From the IMG/VR virus record IMGVR_UViG_3300027631_000174, positions 1 through 20,348 of that record: a stretch of DNA of 20,348 nt; one strand, 5' to 3'. Positions 1,136 to 20,009 of this stretch are shown here, piece by piece. A model generated the notes under the pieces. The model saw only the letters and a program-made list of their open reading frames with translations, was not told the DNA's origin and ran no database searches. The stretch comes from a virus. The translations under genes were made by a program, and so were the position numbers. Every line of letters begins with the position of its first letter. The first letter of the stretch is position 1.

Positions 1136-1173
1136 TGAAAACAAAGCCCTGTAAGGGCAAACCTTACAGGGCT
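1136..1173 (-). terminator. intrinsic terminator of the left non-coding transcript
   Basis: A perfect 12-bp stem, AGCCCTGTAAGG / CCTTACAGGGCT (1145-1156 with 1162-1173), is followed on the minus strand by TTTGTTTT. It ends leftward transcription coming from the RNA region. Confidence 0.85.
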
Positions 1174-2508
1174 GAGAGGAATTAGTTCCAGCGGCGACGC
1201 AATACTATAAGTGGCAACACGGCTATCTTTTTTATTCCTTGACTCGTAACGCCTCAAACTAGGTTGAAAGGGTAAGACCCTAGCGGGTTGTGTTAGAGTT
1301 TCGCTTGAATTTCACAAGCTCATCAGAAGGATAGGTTATGGGGTTAGTTGTTCGCTAACTTAGGAATTCCAATCATCAGGGTCTAGAGAAACCCCTACAT
1401 ATCACCCGTACTCTCCCATATATTAGCACTCTGGTAGATACTTGAAATCTACACGACACCCCATATTAAAGGGCTTCTCTGCCTCTTGAATTACAGAATG
1501 CTAATATATGGCGATCGCCCCTAAACGATCAGCATATAGTCTTGCTACTATTGGACGACAGTCCGCAAGCTTAGAAATCCATATGCGAAGTCCGCTATCA
1601 CTCGCATATTTTTAATGACGGAGGTTACATCCGCCTCGACCGAAGTGTGCTGCTAACCACTAGGGAATATGGCAACAAGCATGGCGGGACTAAATTAGTA
1701 ATGGCGAGTCTATGTTTTTATTACTTAACAACCATGTTATCTGTAGCGGTTAGTTGATCTCTAACCTTTGCCCACGCTTCTCACCTGACTACAAATTAAA
1801 GGAATTGAACCTTCAAGGACGGATATTTTGAGTACCCATTTTTAACATTAACTCTCTACCATTATTTAGTGCTATCATGCCGATTTGCCAACAAAGGTGC
1901 TTCCTCTGGCAAGCGACTAGCAGTTATATTAGGACCTGTTCCTCGCACAGTTAGGCCCGCATAGTCATAGCGTCCTATGACGATTCCTTGATAACACTAA
2001 ATAATAGGAACTAGGTCAAGGCGACAGCCTAGTTCAGTCAGTTGTTACGCCACCACTAGAAAGTTCCAGCAACGAATCTACCGGTTTCTAGTTGGTCTGA
2101 TCTTCTTCCCATCCCTGAGAAATTTGGTACTCGATACCGGAATCGAACCGGTCTTACCAACGTGAAAGGCTGGTGTCCTAACCGATAGACGAATCGAGCA
2201 AAGGTTACGGTGGGCTGCAGATAGTGATTTCGCCTGCATTTAAGTTTCTTACTCCCTGTCATGAGCGGGGAACACATAACACCCATAAAGAAAAGTTCAG
2301 CAAGCTATTAACAATGTCGTAGCATTAGCGCGTTCGATGCTCGGCCGAGCACTACTAGCCGTGGATGATCTACGCACAGTTGTTAATCAGGCCAGCCTAG
2401 AACTGTCTGAACTTTTGTTTATATGTGCTTGGGGCTGTGGCTCGGATAAGTTATTCGCCACAATTAAGGAAGCGCGCCGTGAATTGCGTCCGCTTTCCAC
2501 CCTTATAA
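1138..2508 (-). ncRNA. large structured non-coding transcript carrying tRNA-Glu
   Basis: A minus-strand unit of about 1.37 kb runs from the promoter at 2515-2543 to the terminator at 1145-1173. No credible protein is encoded. The sequence is dense in perfect helices: a 13-bp helix pairing 1416-1428 with 1499-1511, 8 bp pairing 2008-2015 with 2028-2035, 8 bp pairing 1581-1588 with 1602-1609, 7 bp with a tetraloop at 1964-1981, and 6-bp helices at 1748-1766, 1434-1452 and 1885-1912. A T-loop-like element, AAGG-TTCAATT-CCTT, lies at 1800-1814. tRNA-Glu is embedded at 2125-2199; about 300 nt of structured RNA precede it and about 950 nt follow. Setting and size recall the giant phage RNAs GOLLD and ROOL, often found beside tRNAs. 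Family membership is inference. Confidence 0.6.
2125..2199 (-). tRNA. trnE: tRNA-Glu, anticodon UUC, CCA encoded
   Basis: Full cloverleaf on the minus strand. Acceptor stem GCTCGAT/ATCGAGT closes with G-T at the first pair. The D-arm is GTC-TATCGGTTAG-GAC. The anticodon stem is CCAGC/GTTGG with loop CTTTCAC, giving anticodon TTC. The T-arm is ACCGG-TTCGATT-CCGGT. The 3' CCA is encoded after discriminator A. The D-arm and the CTTTCAC loop are typical of bacterial tRNA-Glu. It reads GAA and GAG, both frequent in the surrounding genes. It sits inside the large leftward transcript, so it must be processed out. Confidence 0.93.
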
Positions 2509-2545: not shown

Positions 2546-2681
2546 AAAAAATTAAACAGTCGTTGCCACTATGACTTAACTTCGCAGATGTAGGCCTATA
2601 CAATGCCTGAGTAGTGGTCGAAGGTGTCGTTGACAAACGCTAAATTGAACCCCTGTTCTTATTGGCTTCCCGACTGTTTAT
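2546..2681 (-). ncRNA. small structured RNA (~135 nt) with its own promoter and terminator
   Basis: The predicted start (7 nt after the -10 box at 2688-2693) falls directly at a closing stem AAACAGTCG (2671-2679). This pairs perfectly with CGACTGTTT (2554-2562), followed by AATTTTTT (2546-2553). Inside, GCCA pairs with TGGC, CGTT with AACG, CTTCG (around 2623) with CGAAG, and AGGC with GCCT. The molecule is thus a closed, branched RNA whose terminal helix is also the terminator stem. No start codon opens a credible frame. I recognise no known family; a closed terminal helix also occurs in 6S RNA, but there is no clear promoter-like bubble. Confidence 0.65.
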
Positions 2682-2687
2682 AAATAA

Positions 2688-2716
2688 ATTATAACTGATT
2701 GGGCAGTAAAAGTCAA
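2688..2716 (-). promoter_or_regulatory. strong sigma70-type promoter of the small RNA
   Basis: Minus strand TTGACT (2711-2716), 17-bp spacer, TATAAT (2688-2693). About 50 bp around it closely resemble the promoter at 19981-20009 (shared CAAAATTT upstream, CCCAAT in the spacer, TATAATTTATT and ATAAACA downstream), so the two are copies of one promoter cassette. Confidence 0.85.
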
Positions 2717-3588: not shown

Positions 3589-4142
3589 ATATCATAAAAG
3601 CAGCAATACTTTCTACAACTTTAATTATACCCCTACTTATCGTTGAAAAAGTTTATGAATTTAGAACTAATAGGTTAATGGAGCAAAATGGTGATGCAAT
3701 CATTAAGTTTAAATCAATTAGTGAGATGGACAGAGAATTAAGATGCATGGCTCGTAATGTTTATTACGAAGCTGGAAGTGAACCAGTTGAGGGTAAAATC
3801 GCGGTTGCCCAGGTAACTTTAAATCGTGCAAAAGATGGCAGGTTTGGCGCAGGTATTTGTGGCGTGGTCAATGCTAAGAATGTAGTCTATGAAAAAGTAA
3901 TATGTCAGTTTTCCTGGCTATGCGATGGCAGCGAAGGTAGATTTAAAGTAAATAAGAAAGTCTGGGAAGAAAGCGAAGCAGCAGCTAAAAAGGTATTACT
4001 AGAAGGCTTCACCCTTCCTAGTCTGAAGAACGCCCTATACTTTCACGCAGATTATGTACACCCACAATGGAAAGGTCTAGAAGAAGTATCTAAGATAGGC
4101 CGCCACATTTTTTATAAAACAAAACAGGAAAAAGTAAAATGA
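3585..4142 (+). CDS. SleB/CwlJ-type cell wall hydrolase with N-terminal membrane anchor (lysin)
   Basis: 185 aa. Residues 5-21 form a hydrophobic helix (AAILSTTLIIPLLIV) with no obvious cleavage site. The Hydrolase_2 (SleB) domain follows from about residue 50: MARNVYYEAGSEPVEGK with the likely catalytic Glu62, AQVTLNRA, then CQFSWLCDG and LYFHADYVHPQW. Family members cleave peptidoglycan as lytic transglycosylases or amidases. The weakly hydrophobic anchor plus holin-like neighbour suggests a signal-anchor-release endolysin exported by the host Sec system and activated when the membrane is depolarised; this is inference. Good GAGGAG ribosome-binding site; ends in ATGA overlap with the next gene. 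Confidence 0.88.
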   Translation: MNIIKAAILSTTLIIPLLIVEKVYEFRTNRLMEQNGDAIIKFKSISEMDRELRCMARNVYYEAGSEPVEGKIAVAQVTLNRAKDGRFGAGICGVVNAKNVVYEKVICQFSWLCDGSEGRFKVNKKVWEESEAAAKKVLLEGFTLPSLKNALYFHADYVHPQWKGLEEVSKIGRHIFYKTKQEKVK

Positions 4143-5883: not shown

Positions 5884-6170
5884 ATATGTTTATAAAATAT
5901 TATATGGATAAGGCAGGAATACACCTAGTAGCTAATGAGTATGATGAACTTATGCTTGTAGCCTTAGAGGACGATAAATTAACTGATCCCACAACTGCCT
6001 TAAATAACTTTGCAGAATTTTTAGTCAAACATTGTGCTGAGGTTGCCTTTCATAATGATTATGACCCATATGCAGGTATCTTAAAAGAATTTGGTGTACA
6101 AGAAGTAATACAGGAGCCCAATTACGAAAGTAATTGGGTTCGCAAGATAGTTATGGGAAGAATAAAATGA
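5880..6170 (+). CDS. unknown protein (96 aa) upstream of iscU
   Basis: Acidic and soluble. Blocks seen: HLVANEYDELMLVALEDD, NNFAEFLVKHCAEVAFH, PYAGILKEFGVQEVI. No motif that I can name. It is coupled to both neighbours by ATGA overlaps, ending inside the start of iscU, so it is made with the Fe-S genes; the link is positional only. Confidence 0.7.
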   Translation: MNMFIKYYMDKAGIHLVANEYDELMLVALEDDKLTDPTTALNNFAEFLVKHCAEVAFHNDYDPYAGILKEFGVQEVIQEPNYESNWVRKIVMGRIK

Positions 6171-6550
6171 GTTATTCCACAAAAGTTTTGGATCACTATG
6201 AGAATCCTAGAAATGTAGGATCATTCCAAAAAGATGATCCAGAAGTTGGCACAGGCATGGTAGGGGCACCTGCTTGTGGTGACGTAATGCGATTACAAAT
6301 ACGAGTAGTTGAGGGAATTATAACAGATGCCAAATTTAAAACATATGGATGCGGCTCAGCGATTGCGTCAAGTTCCCTCGTTACCGAGTGGGTTAAAGGT
6401 AAAACACTTAGTCAAGCTTTAACTATTAATAATTCTCATATTGCTGAAGAGCTTGCCCTGCCTCCAGTTAAAATACATTGTTCAATCTTAGCAGAAGATG
6501 CTATAAAGGCGGCCATAAATGATTACAGTAACCGATGCTGCAAAGTCTAA
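6167..6550 (+). CDS. iscU: IscU-type Fe-S cluster scaffold protein
   Basis: 127 aa, the normal IscU length. All cluster ligands are present: Cys37 and Asp39 in APACGDVM, Cys62 in YGCGSAIASSS, and His104-Cys105 after the LPPVK motif (98-102) that host chaperone HscA recognises in IscU. The N-terminus STKVLDHYENPRNVG is also typical. IscU receives sulfur from cysteine desulfurase IscS and builds 2Fe-2S or 4Fe-4S clusters. The ATG at 6167 (overlapping the upstream stop) is preferred over an upstream in-frame start because the family begins here. The gene overlaps the A-type carrier by 32 nt. No phage iscS or hscA is visible, so the host must supply them. Confidence 0.93.
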   Translation: MSYSTKVLDHYENPRNVGSFQKDDPEVGTGMVGAPACGDVMRLQIRVVEGIITDAKFKTYGCGSAIASSSLVTEWVKGKTLSQALTINNSHIAEELALPPVKIHCSILAEDAIKAAINDYSNRCCKV

Positions 6551-6842
6551 AATATTAGACATATTAATTGAAGAAGATAATCCAAGCATATGCCTTAGAA
6601 CTTTTGTTCAAGGTGGCGGATGTTCAGGATTCAATTACGGATTTACATTAGACGAGGTAACAAATGAAGATGATTTTGAAATACCCTTAGACAACTTTCG
6701 TCTACTAATAGATGCGATTAGTATGCAATATTTAACAGGTGCTACTATAGACTATAAAGGTTCTTTTATGTCTAAAGAATTCGTTATAAGTAATCCTAAT
6801 GCTAAACATAGCTGTGGATGTGGTAATAGTTTTTCAGTATAA
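6519..6842 (+). CDS. iscA: A-type Fe-S carrier (IscA/ErpA/HesB family)
   Basis: 107 aa. The three conserved cysteines are Cys35 in QGGGCSGFNYGF and Cys99 and Cys101 in the terminal CGCGNSFSV. FVISNPNAKHSCGCG is the classic C-terminus. These proteins accept clusters from IscU and deliver them to target enzymes. The GGGCSGF.YGF..D wording is closest to the ErpA/IscA branch. It begins inside iscU with AAGGCGG as ribosome-binding site, so the two are expressed together as scaffold plus carrier. Confidence 0.93.
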   Translation: MITVTDAAKSKILDILIEEDNPSICLRTFVQGGGCSGFNYGFTLDEVTNEDDFEIPLDNFRLLIDAISMQYLTGATIDYKGSFMSKEFVISNPNAKHSCGCGNSFSV

Positions 6843-15993: not shown

Positions 15994-16183
15994 ACAAAGA
16001 CAACAACGACACGATGAGTTATTACTACTCATCGACCAGGCTATCATGCAATGTGATGACCACAGAGACCTATTAATTCTAGCCTGCGGAATGATCTCTC
16101 GCACTAGAGAAATGTTAGACACAGTCTTAGGGCCAGATATAAGAAGATCACTTTTTACTGAGATTACAAATGAAAACAAATAA
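15986..16183 (+). CDS. small helical phage protein, paralog of the 6848 gene (65 aa)
   Basis: LLLLIDQAIMQCDDHRDLLI, CGMISRTREMLDTVLGPDIR and RSLFTEI. Lines up over its length with the protein at 6848-7048 (LIDxxIQxxDxHxxLLxLAxxMxxR). Conserved among large phages, no known function. It overlaps thyX by 14 nt; the small gene is a frequent kind of neighbour in nucleotide-metabolism operons, but no direct link is shown. Confidence 0.75.
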   Translation: MSEQRQQRHDELLLLIDQAIMQCDDHRDLLILACGMISRTREMLDTVLGPDIRRSLFTEITNENK

Positions 16184-17057
16184 CATAACCGCTAAGGTGG
16201 TTCAAGACAGCATTGCTAATAATGTTCGTATCACTACCCTAGAACTAGAGTACCCACGCTTTATTCATGCTGAGGTACTTACTCATCGTCAGTTCTCCAG
16301 AAACTCTGCTAGTTCAAGAGCTGTACCCGTTGACGATATGCTGCAGCTAGTTCAGGCAAATCCAGCTGAGCCAGTATTCTGGGGCCGAGCACAATCAGGT
16401 ATGCAAGCTCGTGAGGAAGTTGATGACTCCCAAGTTGCCATTACCTACTGGAATGCAGCACGCTACTCTGCCCTAGACTACGCCCAAACCCTAAAGGGTT
16501 TAAACCTTCACAAGCAGATTGTTAACCGCATTACTGAGCCTTTTCAGATGATTCGTGTAGTCCTAACAGCTACTGAGTGGAGCAACTTCTTCGAGCTCAG
16601 AGATCACGCAGACGCTCAACCTGAAATACAAGCCCTGGCTAAGGCAATGGGTAAAGCGTTCCTGTCAAGCAAGCCTATGCAACTACACGCAGGCGACTGG
16701 CACGTTCCCTATGTGACTCGCCAACAAGATGAAGCTGGACAAGTTTTCTATGGTGATGACACCGTGTTAGACCGCGCAAGCGCCCGCTTAATCTCCGCTA
16801 GTTGCTGTGCTCAGGTGAGCTACCGACTAGCAGACAGGAGCCTAGAAAAAGCTGAACGCATAGCCAAGCGACTTCTACAGGCTCGTCCTTGGCACGCCTC
16901 ACCATTTGAGCATCAGGCAACTCCTATGCGCTCAGGCTCGTTCTTAGACATCGAACCGGGCGTGACTCATATGGATACCTTAAACCAGCTCTGGTCTGCT
17001 AACTTCCGATCATGGATTCAGCATCGCCAACTCTTAGAGCAAGCCGAAATTTCCTGA
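16170..17057 (+). CDS. thyX: flavin-dependent thymidylate synthase ThyX (295 aa)
   Basis: The ThyX signature is THRQFSRNSASSRA (residues 38-51), matching [R/T]HRxxSxNxxSxR with His39, Arg40, Ser43 and Arg50. Later blocks ITEPFQMIRVVLTATEWSNF (the TEW.NF segment near the flavin) and LFELRDHADAQPEIQ-like FFELRDHADAQPEIQALA are typical, and HASPFEHQATP closes the core. It makes dTMP from dUMP using methylene-tetrahydrofolate, FAD and NADPH, supporting phage DNA synthesis. Length is at the upper normal limit for phage ThyX. Its TGA stop begins a TGACCCTAAAC motif. No clear terminator follows. Confidence 0.95.
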   Translation: MKTNNITAKVVQDSIANNVRITTLELEYPRFIHAEVLTHRQFSRNSASSRAVPVDDMLQLVQANPAEPVFWGRAQSGMQAREEVDDSQVAITYWNAARYSALDYAQTLKGLNLHKQIVNRITEPFQMIRVVLTATEWSNFFELRDHADAQPEIQALAKAMGKAFLSSKPMQLHAGDWHVPYVTRQQDEAGQVFYGDDTVLDRASARLISASCCAQVSYRLADRSLEKAERIAKRLLQARPWHASPFEHQATPMRSGSFLDIEPGVTHMDTLNQLWSANFRSWIQHRQLLEQAEIS

Positions 17058-17385: not shown

Positions 17386-18165
17386 ATGAATTTAACTGAA
17401 AATCCCCACCCTGAACCGCCGCGTCAAGGGCATAAGCGAGATCTCCGTGCTTGGCCCTTTGAGGCATTCCAATCAGCTAACCCACTTGTCCTCGGTCAAC
17501 TAGCTGACCAATTGCGATTAAATTCGCAGAACTCATGGCTACCAGATCAGCTTCTACACCACTTTGGACAGTGGACTTTAGTATGGAAGGACTCCTTAGT
17601 GGATTGTAAGGCTACAGCTCGCTTAAACTTAGGGTCAGAGTTCCAAAGAGGTTGCTGGTTTTTAGCCTGCCGTTTACCTCGTTCAAAATTAATACCAAAG
17701 CAAACTGCTCAACCACAATTCTCCTCTTTCGTGCCACTTATCCTAGCTGGCATTAAGCGTTATCAAGGAATAGCATATTCTAGTTGGTCTCAGGAGGGGT
17801 TAGAGTCGGTAATGCCCAAGGAGTTAGTGGAAGCTGCTGTTACCCCTTGGCCTGCGGTTGACAGGGAGGAGTTGCTCAGATTGCGCCAGGAGGGACTCCT
17901 AGTCCGCTCAGGCCCAAAATCAGGTACTCTCCGTGACCCTAAAACATCATGGCAGCTTTATGGTATCAAGGATACTGAGCTAGGGCAATTGCCCAACTAT
18001 ACACAGGTTCAACTGACCCAGATATGGGTCTGTCACCCAGATCAGCGACACCAGGATATGATCTGTGATCCCCTAGACTGGGATAAGCACCCAGAACCCC
18101 TAATTAAAACAGAACCAGTAGCCAAGTGGACCGGCCTAACAAAACTACCTTGGGATAACCAGTGA
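17386..18165 (+). CDS. conserved phage protein of unknown function (259 aa)
   Basis: Pro-rich, basic start (NPHPEPPRQGHKRDLR), then WLPDQLLHHFGQWTLVWKD and FVPLILAGIKRYQGIAYSSW. The strongest blocks are ELLRLRQEGLLVRSG, RDPKTSWQLYGIKDTELG, QVQLTQIWVCHPDQRH, MICDPLDWDKHPEPL and LPWDN. The R..GL..K.G......P.....LY.IK.T.....P......L.QIW.AHP..R...MILD...WD..P.PLI pattern belongs to a family in T4-like and related phages with no settled role. It overlaps the helix-turn-helix gene by 4 nt, so the two are made together. Two TGACCCTAA-type motif copies fall inside it. Confidence 0.82.
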   Translation: MNLTENPHPEPPRQGHKRDLRAWPFEAFQSANPLVLGQLADQLRLNSQNSWLPDQLLHHFGQWTLVWKDSLVDCKATARLNLGSEFQRGCWFLACRLPRSKLIPKQTAQPQFSSFVPLILAGIKRYQGIAYSSWSQEGLESVMPKELVEAAVTPWPAVDREELLRLRQEGLLVRSGPKSGTLRDPKTSWQLYGIKDTELGQLPNYTQVQLTQIWVCHPDQRHQDMICDPLDWDKHPEPLIKTEPVAKWTGLTKLPWDNQ

Positions 18166-18464
18166 AATACGACGAACCAACAACAAAAAAACTACAACTA
18201 GATTACCTGGCAGGAGTCGCAGTATCTGCCCTAGCTGAGGGTCTGGGCGTTCCAGAAAGATCAGTCATAGCTAAGCTCTCCTCTCTGGGCGTGTACAAAA
18301 AGAAGGAGTACTTGACCAAGCGTGGTGAAATTCCTGTGAAGAAGGACGAATATATAGAGCGCATCGCTAAGCTACTAGATGTAAATTCAGACATGCTTGA
18401 GTCACTGGAGAAGGTAAATAAGTCAGTTTTAGCACTTATAGAGCGACGTTTGACCCTAAACTAG
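18162..18464 (+). CDS. small helix-turn-helix DNA-binding protein, copy 1 (100 aa)
   Basis: Residues about 14-42 form a sigma-type helix-turn-helix: YLAGVAVSALAEGLGVPERS followed by VIAKLSSLGVY. Then a short linker KKKEYLTKRGEIPVKKDEY and a C-terminal helical part (IAKLLDVNSDMLESLEKVN). The whole protein lines up with the 103-aa protein at 19636-19947: Y.....VS.LA..LG...RSV.AKLS..GVY....Y..K.G..P.KKD......IA..L......SL.K.NK..L..I. A regulator of phage transcription or genome handling is likely. The gene ends in a GTTTAGGGTCA motif and a strong terminator. Confidence 0.8.
   Translation: MKYDEPTTKKLQLDYLAGVAVSALAEGLGVPERSVIAKLSSLGVYKKKEYLTKRGEIPVKKDEYIERIAKLLDVNSDMLESLEKVNKSVLALIERRLTLN
18451..18461 (-). 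repeat. GTTTAGGGTCA motif copy
   Basis: Exact minus-strand match in the last codons of the helix-turn-helix gene. Confidence 0.7.
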
Positions 18465-18765: not shown

Positions 18766-18803
18766 CAACAAAAAGCCCCTACGGTAATTACTCCGTAGGG
18801 GCT
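18766..18803 (-). terminator. intrinsic terminator of the right non-coding transcript
   Basis: Perfect 11-bp stem AGCCCCTACGG (18774-18784) / CCGTAGGGGCT (18793-18803) followed on the minus strand by TTTTTGTTG. Confidence 0.85.
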
Positions 18804-19044
18804 AGTTGATCGACTAGGGTTGACTACCCAAAGCACTCGTAAGATGAAACTCTAGTCCGCAACCTTGTCAGGGTTCTATGGTTGTAGAGTAAGCAGAGCT
18901 TAGCTGTCTTTGTCAATTTTATCGGTTGTCTTTATACTATCCGTGCAGGTTTCCTCTGTGTCCACGGCTTAGTAACAGTTTTTTGTTTGGGATAGTTACT
19001 GTCATTGTACTCTCCATGTGGCTCAGGGCACCACACCCCTTGCC

Positions 19045-19055
19045 TGACCCTAAAC
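19045..19055 (-). repeat. GTTTAGGGTCA motif copy
   Basis: Exact minus-strand match inside the right non-coding transcript, not at a gene end. Confidence 0.65.
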
Positions 19056-19298
19056 CTGAGCGCCTTAGCCAGTGGTTAGCTGGAGTCTGCTTCAAAGTTG
19101 CCTAGTCAAGCCTGTAACATAGGCTACTCGACCGCGTATATTTTACGACTCTACGTGTATAAGTCAGTGCGCTAGTAGGAGTCCATACCTACATGGCTGG
19201 GAGGAACCCAGATCTTTGTTAGATGATAGCTGTATTTTAAAGACTTCTTTGTCCTCTCAACTCTGTTATTGAGCGTTTCAGGAGTTGACACTATCGCT

Positions 19299-19397
19299 AG
19301 GGTTCCTATCTAATGATGTTACCCCGAACCACTAACTTTTTATGATGGTGTTAGTAACCCCAGGGTTCCTATCTAATGATGTTACCCCCAACCACTA
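19299..19397 (-). repeat. two direct copies of a 36-nt RNA module, 63 nt apart
   Basis: 19299-19334 and 19362-19397 are identical except one base (G at 19326, C at 19389). Each starts AGGGTTCCTATCTAATGATG and ends AACCACTA. On the RNA strand each copy can form a GGGGTAAC...GGAACCC hairpin, and the spacer between them folds as ACTAAC/GTTAGT. They look like two equal structural or protein-binding units in one RNA. With only two copies and no cas genes this is not a CRISPR array. Confidence 0.75.
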
Positions 19398-19575
19398 CGT
19401 TTAGAGGACGCAGGCCTCGCTATAGCTTTGGAAGTGGTCGCTTTACCTTGATAAGCGTACCCGTCATCAGGAGATGACGGGGGTGGATTCGAACCACCTA
19501 CTAACTGTTCCAGAGTCTATCTTATGAAGTTGGCAACTTCTAATTTATTTTAAATTATCGCCTATTCAAGAATCT

Positions 19576-19635: not shown

Positions 19636-19947
19636 TTACTGCAAGCCAGCCAGGATTTTAGTCAGGGCGGTCTTGTTAGCCTTGGTCAGGCTGTCTGCCT
19701 CTGCTTCAGTAAGCTGGAGGATATTGGCAATCTGGTCAGCAACCAGGTCCTTCTTGATAGGCTTCACACCAGTCTTAGAGACGTAGCTCTTAGCTTGGTA
19801 CACGCCTTCACGGGACAGCTTAGCCACAACCGAGCGCACCGACTTGCCTAGAGCATCTGCAATAGACTCGACCGATTGGCCCGACTGGTAGTCCGCGACC
19901 AGCTTCTCAACTTGGTCTGCGGTGTAGTTTACGATTTTTGCGGTCAT
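19636..19947 (-). CDS. small helix-turn-helix DNA-binding protein, copy 2 (103 aa)
   Basis: Start taken at the ATG at 19947, with AAAGGAAG 6 nt upstream; an in-frame start further out would lie over the promoter. Reads MTAKIVNYTADQVEKLVADY, then SVESIADALGKSVRSVVAKL and SREGVY as helix-turn-helix. KTGVKPIKKD is the shared linker, followed by a helical end (IANILQLTEAEADSLTKANK). A paralog of the protein at 18162-18464. Its GC and codon choice (CTG, AAG, GTC) are more GC-rich than most neighbours, suggesting strong expression or a different origin. It is driven by three tandem promoters, so probably an abundant early protein. Confidence 0.85.
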   Translation of the reverse strand: MTAKIVNYTADQVEKLVADYQSGQSVESIADALGKSVRSVVAKLSREGVYQAKSYVSKTGVKPIKKDLVADQIANILQLTEAEADSLTKANKTALTKILAGLQ

Positions 19948-19980
19948 TTTGCTTCCTTTGGTTTGTTTGTTTATGAATAA

Positions 19981-20009
19981 ATTATAAGGCATTGGGGCAA
20001 GGGAGTCAA
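19981..20009 (-). promoter_or_regulatory. tandem promoter P1 of the helix-turn-helix gene
   Basis: Minus strand TTGACT (20004-20009), 17-bp spacer, TATAAT (19981-19986). AAAATTT lies upstream as a possible UP element. Closest promoter to the gene, giving a leader of about 27 nt. Confidence 0.87.

Follow-up and report, generated by a model that had tools for sequence, protein, structure and literature searches.

The window analyzed here, a 20,348-nt (20-kb) fragment from an uncultured virus, carries on its minus strand what consensus sites suggest is one promoter-to-terminator transcript of ~1.37 kb (1138-2508). A sigma70-type promoter (TTGAAT-17-TATAAT, 2515-2543) puts the start near 2508, and a promoter stands at the same position in L166, L171, L165, and L167 and in most of L232-L243. 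The terminator at 1173-1145, a 12-bp stem followed by T-rich DNA, precedes the next gene, and no promoter-like site was found on the minus strand between 2543-2515 and this terminator. The first-pass annotation had described this region as a large structured transcript with a leftward promoter, a terminator, an embedded tRNA-Glu, and many perfect helices. These claims are borne out by our data, although that annotation missed both the hammerhead ribozyme described below and the internal module boundaries. The tRNA-Glu (2125-2199, minus strand) has a cloverleaf with a UUC anticodon and scores 55.2 bits against the Rfam tRNA model. With loops of up to 200 nt allowed, 1138-2508 contains three perfect Watson-Crick helices that reach 11 bp or more (2005-1995/1871-1861; the 13-bp helix 1511-1499/1428-1416, already singled out in the annotation; and the terminator); in 300 dinucleotide shuffles, the mean count was 0.04 and the highest was 1. 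Minus-strand folding energy beats shuffles in most, not all, 250-nt windows (z of about −3.3 to +1.0) and is weak at 1201-1450 and 2101-2350, where the RNA is not unusually stable. Folding energy alone is therefore not decisive, and covariation is.

Structured elements also lie on either side of this transcript. A separate structured small RNA of ~125 nt (2557-2690, minus strand) has its own promoter at 2716-2688 (11/12), is 73% conserved in clades C and D, and is present in L244. Downstream, a minus-strand block at 629-1171 is conserved at 72 to 76% in distant clades; it contains a 64-aa open reading frame (ORF) (859-1053), preceded by a perfect 12/12 promoter (1104-1076), and has another promoter (862-834) ahead of a noncoding stretch (690-830).

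Comparison with related phages resolves the RNA into a series of modules, all on the minus strand. The 5′ domain D5 (GGGUG...UUAAUUGUGG...CCGAGCCACAGCCC; 2432-2508) was aligned in 14 loci, tRNA-free phages included, with 32 invariant columns, in an alignment (A5) where the D5 stem is not resolved in every row. A helix-closed insert, M4 (AAAAGUUCAG/CUGAACUUUU; 2291-2416), recognized by sequence and by spacing comparison, occupies the site where clade C and D phages hold another module, M3, and a module similar to M4 is present in L007. The spacing between D5 and the second domain, D2, is ~230 nt where a ~130-nt helix-closed insert is present (M3 in clades C and D, M4 in the window) and 92 to 96 nt in most tRNA-free copies; in L237, a stump resembling the M3 closing helix, read by eye, is kept at the insert site. 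D2 itself (2212-2284) is a three-way junction defined by covariation: in 13 loci, 14 of its pairs covary or are invariant (e.g., UA/GC, CG/AU, and GC/AU/UA swaps). The tRNA-Glu is placed between D2 and the hammerhead, which adjoin each other in L232-L243, where the tRNA is lacking. Farther 3′ lies a 186-nt insert (1515-1700) that is bounded by the direct repeat TGGCGA and is absent from a 95%-identical clade B phage; 82 nt of it (1610-1691) are 94% identical to an element elsewhere in L009/L011, and the segment may be a mobile element. The helix-closed module M2 (1416-1511), sealed by the 13-bp helix noted above, is also found in L006/L164, directly 3′ of M3. The 3′ tail, which ends in the terminator (AAUAAAAAAGAUAGCCGUGUUGCC..; 1138-1235), resembles the tails of full-length RNAs in other phages (UUAAAAAAGAYAACGCUGUUGC), a match made by sequence only. 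We rejected an array of degenerate tRNAs as a description of the region: ARAGORN and Rfam see only tRNA-Glu, and M3, M2, and the hammerhead misfit tRNAs.

At 1236-1331 lies a type I hammerhead, recognized from its core, stems, and covariation, which scores 121 bits with covariance model R1. Stem I (1331-1327/1240-1236) is followed by CUGAUGA (1326-1320), a stem II with a 7-nt loop, GAAA, and a long stem III; the conserved block 1233-1330 reads UCCUU-CUGAUGA-GCUUG(UGAAAUU)CAAGC-GAAA-CUC...GAG-U-C/AAGGA, the slash marking the cleavage predicted between C1241 (C17) and A1240. The core (CUGANGA, GAAA, A15.1-U16.1, and C17) is invariant in 17/17 sequences, every one of which carries C3U4G5A6N7G8A9, G12A13A14, A15.1-U16.1, and H17. 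A plain, unfitted MAFFT alignment of seven loci already pairs 100% of hammerhead cells, with 6 of 18 pairs changing on both sides. In the 17-sequence alignment (A4), which was fitted to the hammerhead model, stems I and II are 100% paired, stem III is 94.9% paired, and half of the pairs (9/18) change on both sides, giving a covariation score of 0.439 versus 0.151 for shuffled and 0.02 to 0.11 (maximum, 0.109) for slid alignments. By these comparisons, all three stems covary. Moreover, a covariance model built from the seven loci detected hammerheads (E values of 1e-10 to 1e-13) in ten further loci that had been retrieved only via a body-B or small-RNA motif. The window hammerhead shares with known hammerheads of types I to III (PMC3088659) the CUGANGA/GAAA/A-U/C17 core, the three stems, and compensatory changes, but it differs in its very long stem III, its 7-nt stem II loop, and its location inside a giant phage RNA. 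It also lies below every Rfam hammerhead threshold: the window yielded only an off-register 21.5-bit Hammerhead_3 match (1293-1364), and the Rfam hammerhead models found no match in the homologous loci. The long variable stem III is probably the reason for this miss. Each locus has one hammerhead, and a hammerhead pattern scan of genome contigs returned no match.

Syntenic relatives, located through flanking proteins, place this RNA in a wider family. The same region is 99.7% identical in clade A (L002) and 90 to 94% identical in clade B (L004/L166), where 1515-1700 is missing, and it recurs in L006/L164, clade C (L083/L171), clade D (L086/L165), and clade E (L007/L167), with identity falling to 70 to 75% while paired positions change together. 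Clades C to E hold a ~700-nt segment, body B, between hammerhead and terminator, and part of it matches window 19170-19253 at 77%. A 25-nt body-B motif is present in 20 viral contigs, and the same hammerhead RNA occurs in nine of the newly found contigs; no tRNA gene was detected in any of the new contigs. The tRNA-free copies from seven phages, aligned in full, form one transcript of ~0.9 kb (864 to 944 nt) in the order promoter, D5 (GGGUGACAGC...UUAAUUGUGG...GAGCCACAGCCC), D2, hammerhead, body B, tail, and terminator, with covariation at 9/12 pairs of body B. In the window transcript, D5, D2, hammerhead, and tail keep this family order, and body B (~0.5 to 0.7 kb, after the hammerhead) is missing. 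Because these four elements are common to the window and the tRNA-free phages, we read the window RNA as a family member with inserts and without body B; the resemblance of its 3′ tail to the family tail points to deletion of body B, and the window copy may be a reduced or decaying version. Comparison across phages shows that D5, D2, and the hammerhead share a common ancestry and that D2, M3, the hammerhead, and body B are base paired. These data support a new family of large structured phage RNAs with the plan D5-D2-hammerhead-body B-3′ tail, all of whose sequences come from uncultured viruses; the collection scans used exact patterns, and more distant members were probably missed. Not every phage needs a single molecule, since clades C, D, and E have a second promoter that lies between the D5-D2-M3-tRNA part and the hammerhead part.

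A second large RNA in the window (18770-19575, minus strand) is a paralogue of body B with its own promoter (19604-19576) and terminator (18803-18774), and an 81% identical copy is present in G001. Near its 5′ end, 19437-19505 (minus strand) forms a permuted tRNA-like module (T-arm, closed acceptor stem, and D-arm). This arrangement recalls YrlA (Y RNA-like), but the Rfam YrlA match is weak (30.1 bits, E value of 0.0057, versus a gathering score of 69); L176 has a similar YrlA-like match at 3677-3788. Both phage groups have small D5-like/HTH DNA-binding proteins (phrog_323 and phrog_1725) flanking their large RNAs (L237, 5488-5808; window, 18162-18464 and 19636-19992). Several phage contigs also encode permuted-type tmRNAs (L166, 8915-9274; L169, 5526-5941; L167, 7674-8028; L189, 6265-6783) with the tags ANDSQFALAA, ANDEVFALAA, and ANDEKFLMAA, and Rfam beta_tmRNA scores 137 bits in L007. 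These tmRNA genes suggest betaproteobacterial hosts for the window clade.

The M3 module (1855-2007, minus strand; covariance-model hit of 164 bits) is a pseudoknotted RNA of ~150 nt with a closing helix of ~18 bp and a pseudoknot pairing 1946-1943 with 1916-1913. A relaxed M3 pattern matched in 50 viral contigs, which reduce to 31 distinct full sequences, many of the loci being similar to each other. Across these 31 sequences, 95.3% of cells are paired and two-sided changes affect 31 of 44 pairs, for a covariation score of 0.495 versus 0.168. The pseudoknot helix is 100% paired and shows base-pair exchanges (21 GC:10 CG and 23 AU:8 GC). M3 was found in 18 of the 20 virus records searched, at a single place in each except for one 364-kb record with two matches, at its two ends; from these records, M3 appears to be a one-copy-per-genome element of phages up to 364 kb. 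It sits in tRNA arrays in ~30 distinct phage contexts, most often directly after tRNA-Glu. Where M3 abuts a tRNA, helix 1 continues into the discriminator-CCA end, whose pairing partner is the opposite end of M3. The two sides change in concert: nine distinct sequences have ACCA/UGGU, with GCCA/UGGC in L196 and UCCA/UGGA after a tRNA-Gly in L208, with L209 as a partial exception. The sole exact-pattern match in a bacterial genome (L182, Romboutsia) lies in AT-rich DNA without a tRNA and received no score from M3 model R2, and we discounted it. M3 has no Rfam match, and we regard it as a second new RNA family. In relatives, tRNA-Glu and M3 belong to phage tRNA arrays of up to ~27 tRNAs, but M3 is not a tRNA, and the window has one tRNA embedded in structured RNA. 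Since M3 and tRNA-Glu also occur elsewhere as separate tRNA-array elements, the window RNA is modular. Other helix-closed structured RNAs, unlike M3, lie between tRNA genes in L176 (86-260; e.g., ACCAUAGAGAAACAC...GUGUUUCUCUAUGGU) and L174 (11575-11690).

Precedents exist for large ornate phage RNAs, for hammerheads, and for tRNA arrays, and the GOLLD RNA reportedly goes back to Weinberg in 2009. We consider it probable that the region encodes one ~1.37-kb transcript of a new hammerhead giant RNA family that has gained tRNA-Glu, M3, M4, and M2 as inserts, has lost body B, cleaves itself, and yields stable trans-acting pieces. We found no counterpart, in Rfam 15 or in the open-access papers searched, to a family of giant RNAs that center on a hammerhead and take tRNA and pseudoknot inserts as options. 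The first-pass annotation had left a choice between membership in a known giant RNA class, such as GOLLD or ROOL, and a new class. The absence of Rfam matches and the ~0.9-kb family in tRNA-free contigs favor the latter, and the strong covariation found among homologues, the check that it had named, agrees with its structural reading. A permissive Rfam 15 search of the window and 15 related loci (E values up to 5 for the window, up to 10 for five homologous loci, and up to 1 for ten more) found no match to GOLLD, ROOL, or HEARO, returning tRNAs, permuted tmRNA, and chance matches only, which speaks against membership at the level of covariance models. The window RNA does share with both GOLLD and ROOL a large, ornate, phage-borne form near tRNA genes or islands, and GOLLD linkers sometimes hold tRNAs (PMC12286853). 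However, its conserved sequences differ from those of GOLLD, its family has D5, D2, and body-B domains and an internal hammerhead, and hammerheads are not mentioned for GOLLD or ROOL in PMC12286853; a divergent member of either class is accordingly most improbable. GOLLD and ROOL are the nearest functional analogy to the window RNA rather than its class. Among the 50,697 isolated-phage records in INPHARED, blastn yielded no genuine match to M3 (two queries, the second with five divergent variants), to the hammerhead RNA, to either large RNA, or to the small RNA; the matches H22 and H23 span just 41 and 29 bases and lie at the promoter end.

A tRNA-operon transcript, in which tRNA-Glu and separately processed small RNAs (M3 and the hammerhead) share a promoter and no large-RNA function exists, would account for the independent life of M3 in tRNA arrays, for the second promoter in clades C to E, and for the dispensability of the 186-nt piece in clade B. 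We nevertheless judge it unlikely: D5, D2, hammerhead, and tail stand in the same order in tRNA-free phages within one ~0.9-kb transcript, and this shared order makes the transcript frame independent of the tRNA insert. Hammerheads are common in selfish or viroid-like elements (PMC3088659), where they would serve RNA circularization or retromobility, and both the modules and the 186-nt insert appear to move between places. The single hammerhead per locus, however, rules out a circular RNA released as a twin-ribozyme monomer, and the position is fixed beside phage genes and promoters across syntenic clades, which leaves this explanation with very little probability. We give the least credence of all to protein-coding or untranslated-leader DNA. 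A few short ORFs do overlap 1138-2508, but none has a Pfam match, the terminator precedes the next gene, and comparison with a 95%-identical relative reveals frame-breaking indels of 1, 2, 4, 7, and 22 nt; in the longest shared non-tRNA frame, protein conservation (81%) is below DNA conservation. The annotation had seen no credible gene here and had named a conserved frame as grounds against its reading; no such frame crosses the region.

If the region does encode a self-cleaving member of this hammerhead family, host RNA polymerase would transcribe the giant RNA, and self-cleavage between C1241 and A1240 would give a ~1.27-kb 5′ piece with a 2′,3′-cyclic phosphate and a ~100-nt terminator tail with a 5′-OH. 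The same cut in tRNA-free relatives would leave D5-D2-hammerhead on one piece and body B, beginning with a 5′-OH, on the other. RNase P and tRNA 3′ enzymes would excise the tRNA-Glu, RNase III could possibly cut the long closing helices of M3 and M2, and the large pieces may persist as stable trans-acting RNAs, most plausibly, by analogy, as RNA-only or RNA-protein assemblies comparable to GOLLD, a 14-mer RNA nanocage, and ROOL, which also forms nanocages (PMC12286853). A bolder and distinctly doubtful possibility is that two new RNA machines lie here: a self-cut giant RNA that forms an RNA-only particle, and a ribozyme-like M3, joined to the tRNA-Glu 3′ end and acting as a catalyst or decoy on tRNA 3′ ends or against tRNA-targeting host defense. 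A family with a predicted self-cutting element gives a way into the question of what GOLLD, ROOL, and other giant phage RNAs do: its cleavage site would define the pieces, mutations in the core would distinguish the effects of cleavage from those of structure, and versions with and without the tRNA are directly comparable. M3, a separate and sharply defined family with a covarying pseudoknot and a strong tRNA-Glu link, is small enough for structural work.

Elsewhere in the window, a NifU-like Fe-S assembly protein and a neighbor resembling an IscA-type protein are encoded at 6134-6842, and a thymidylate synthase (ThyX-like) is encoded at 16170-17057.
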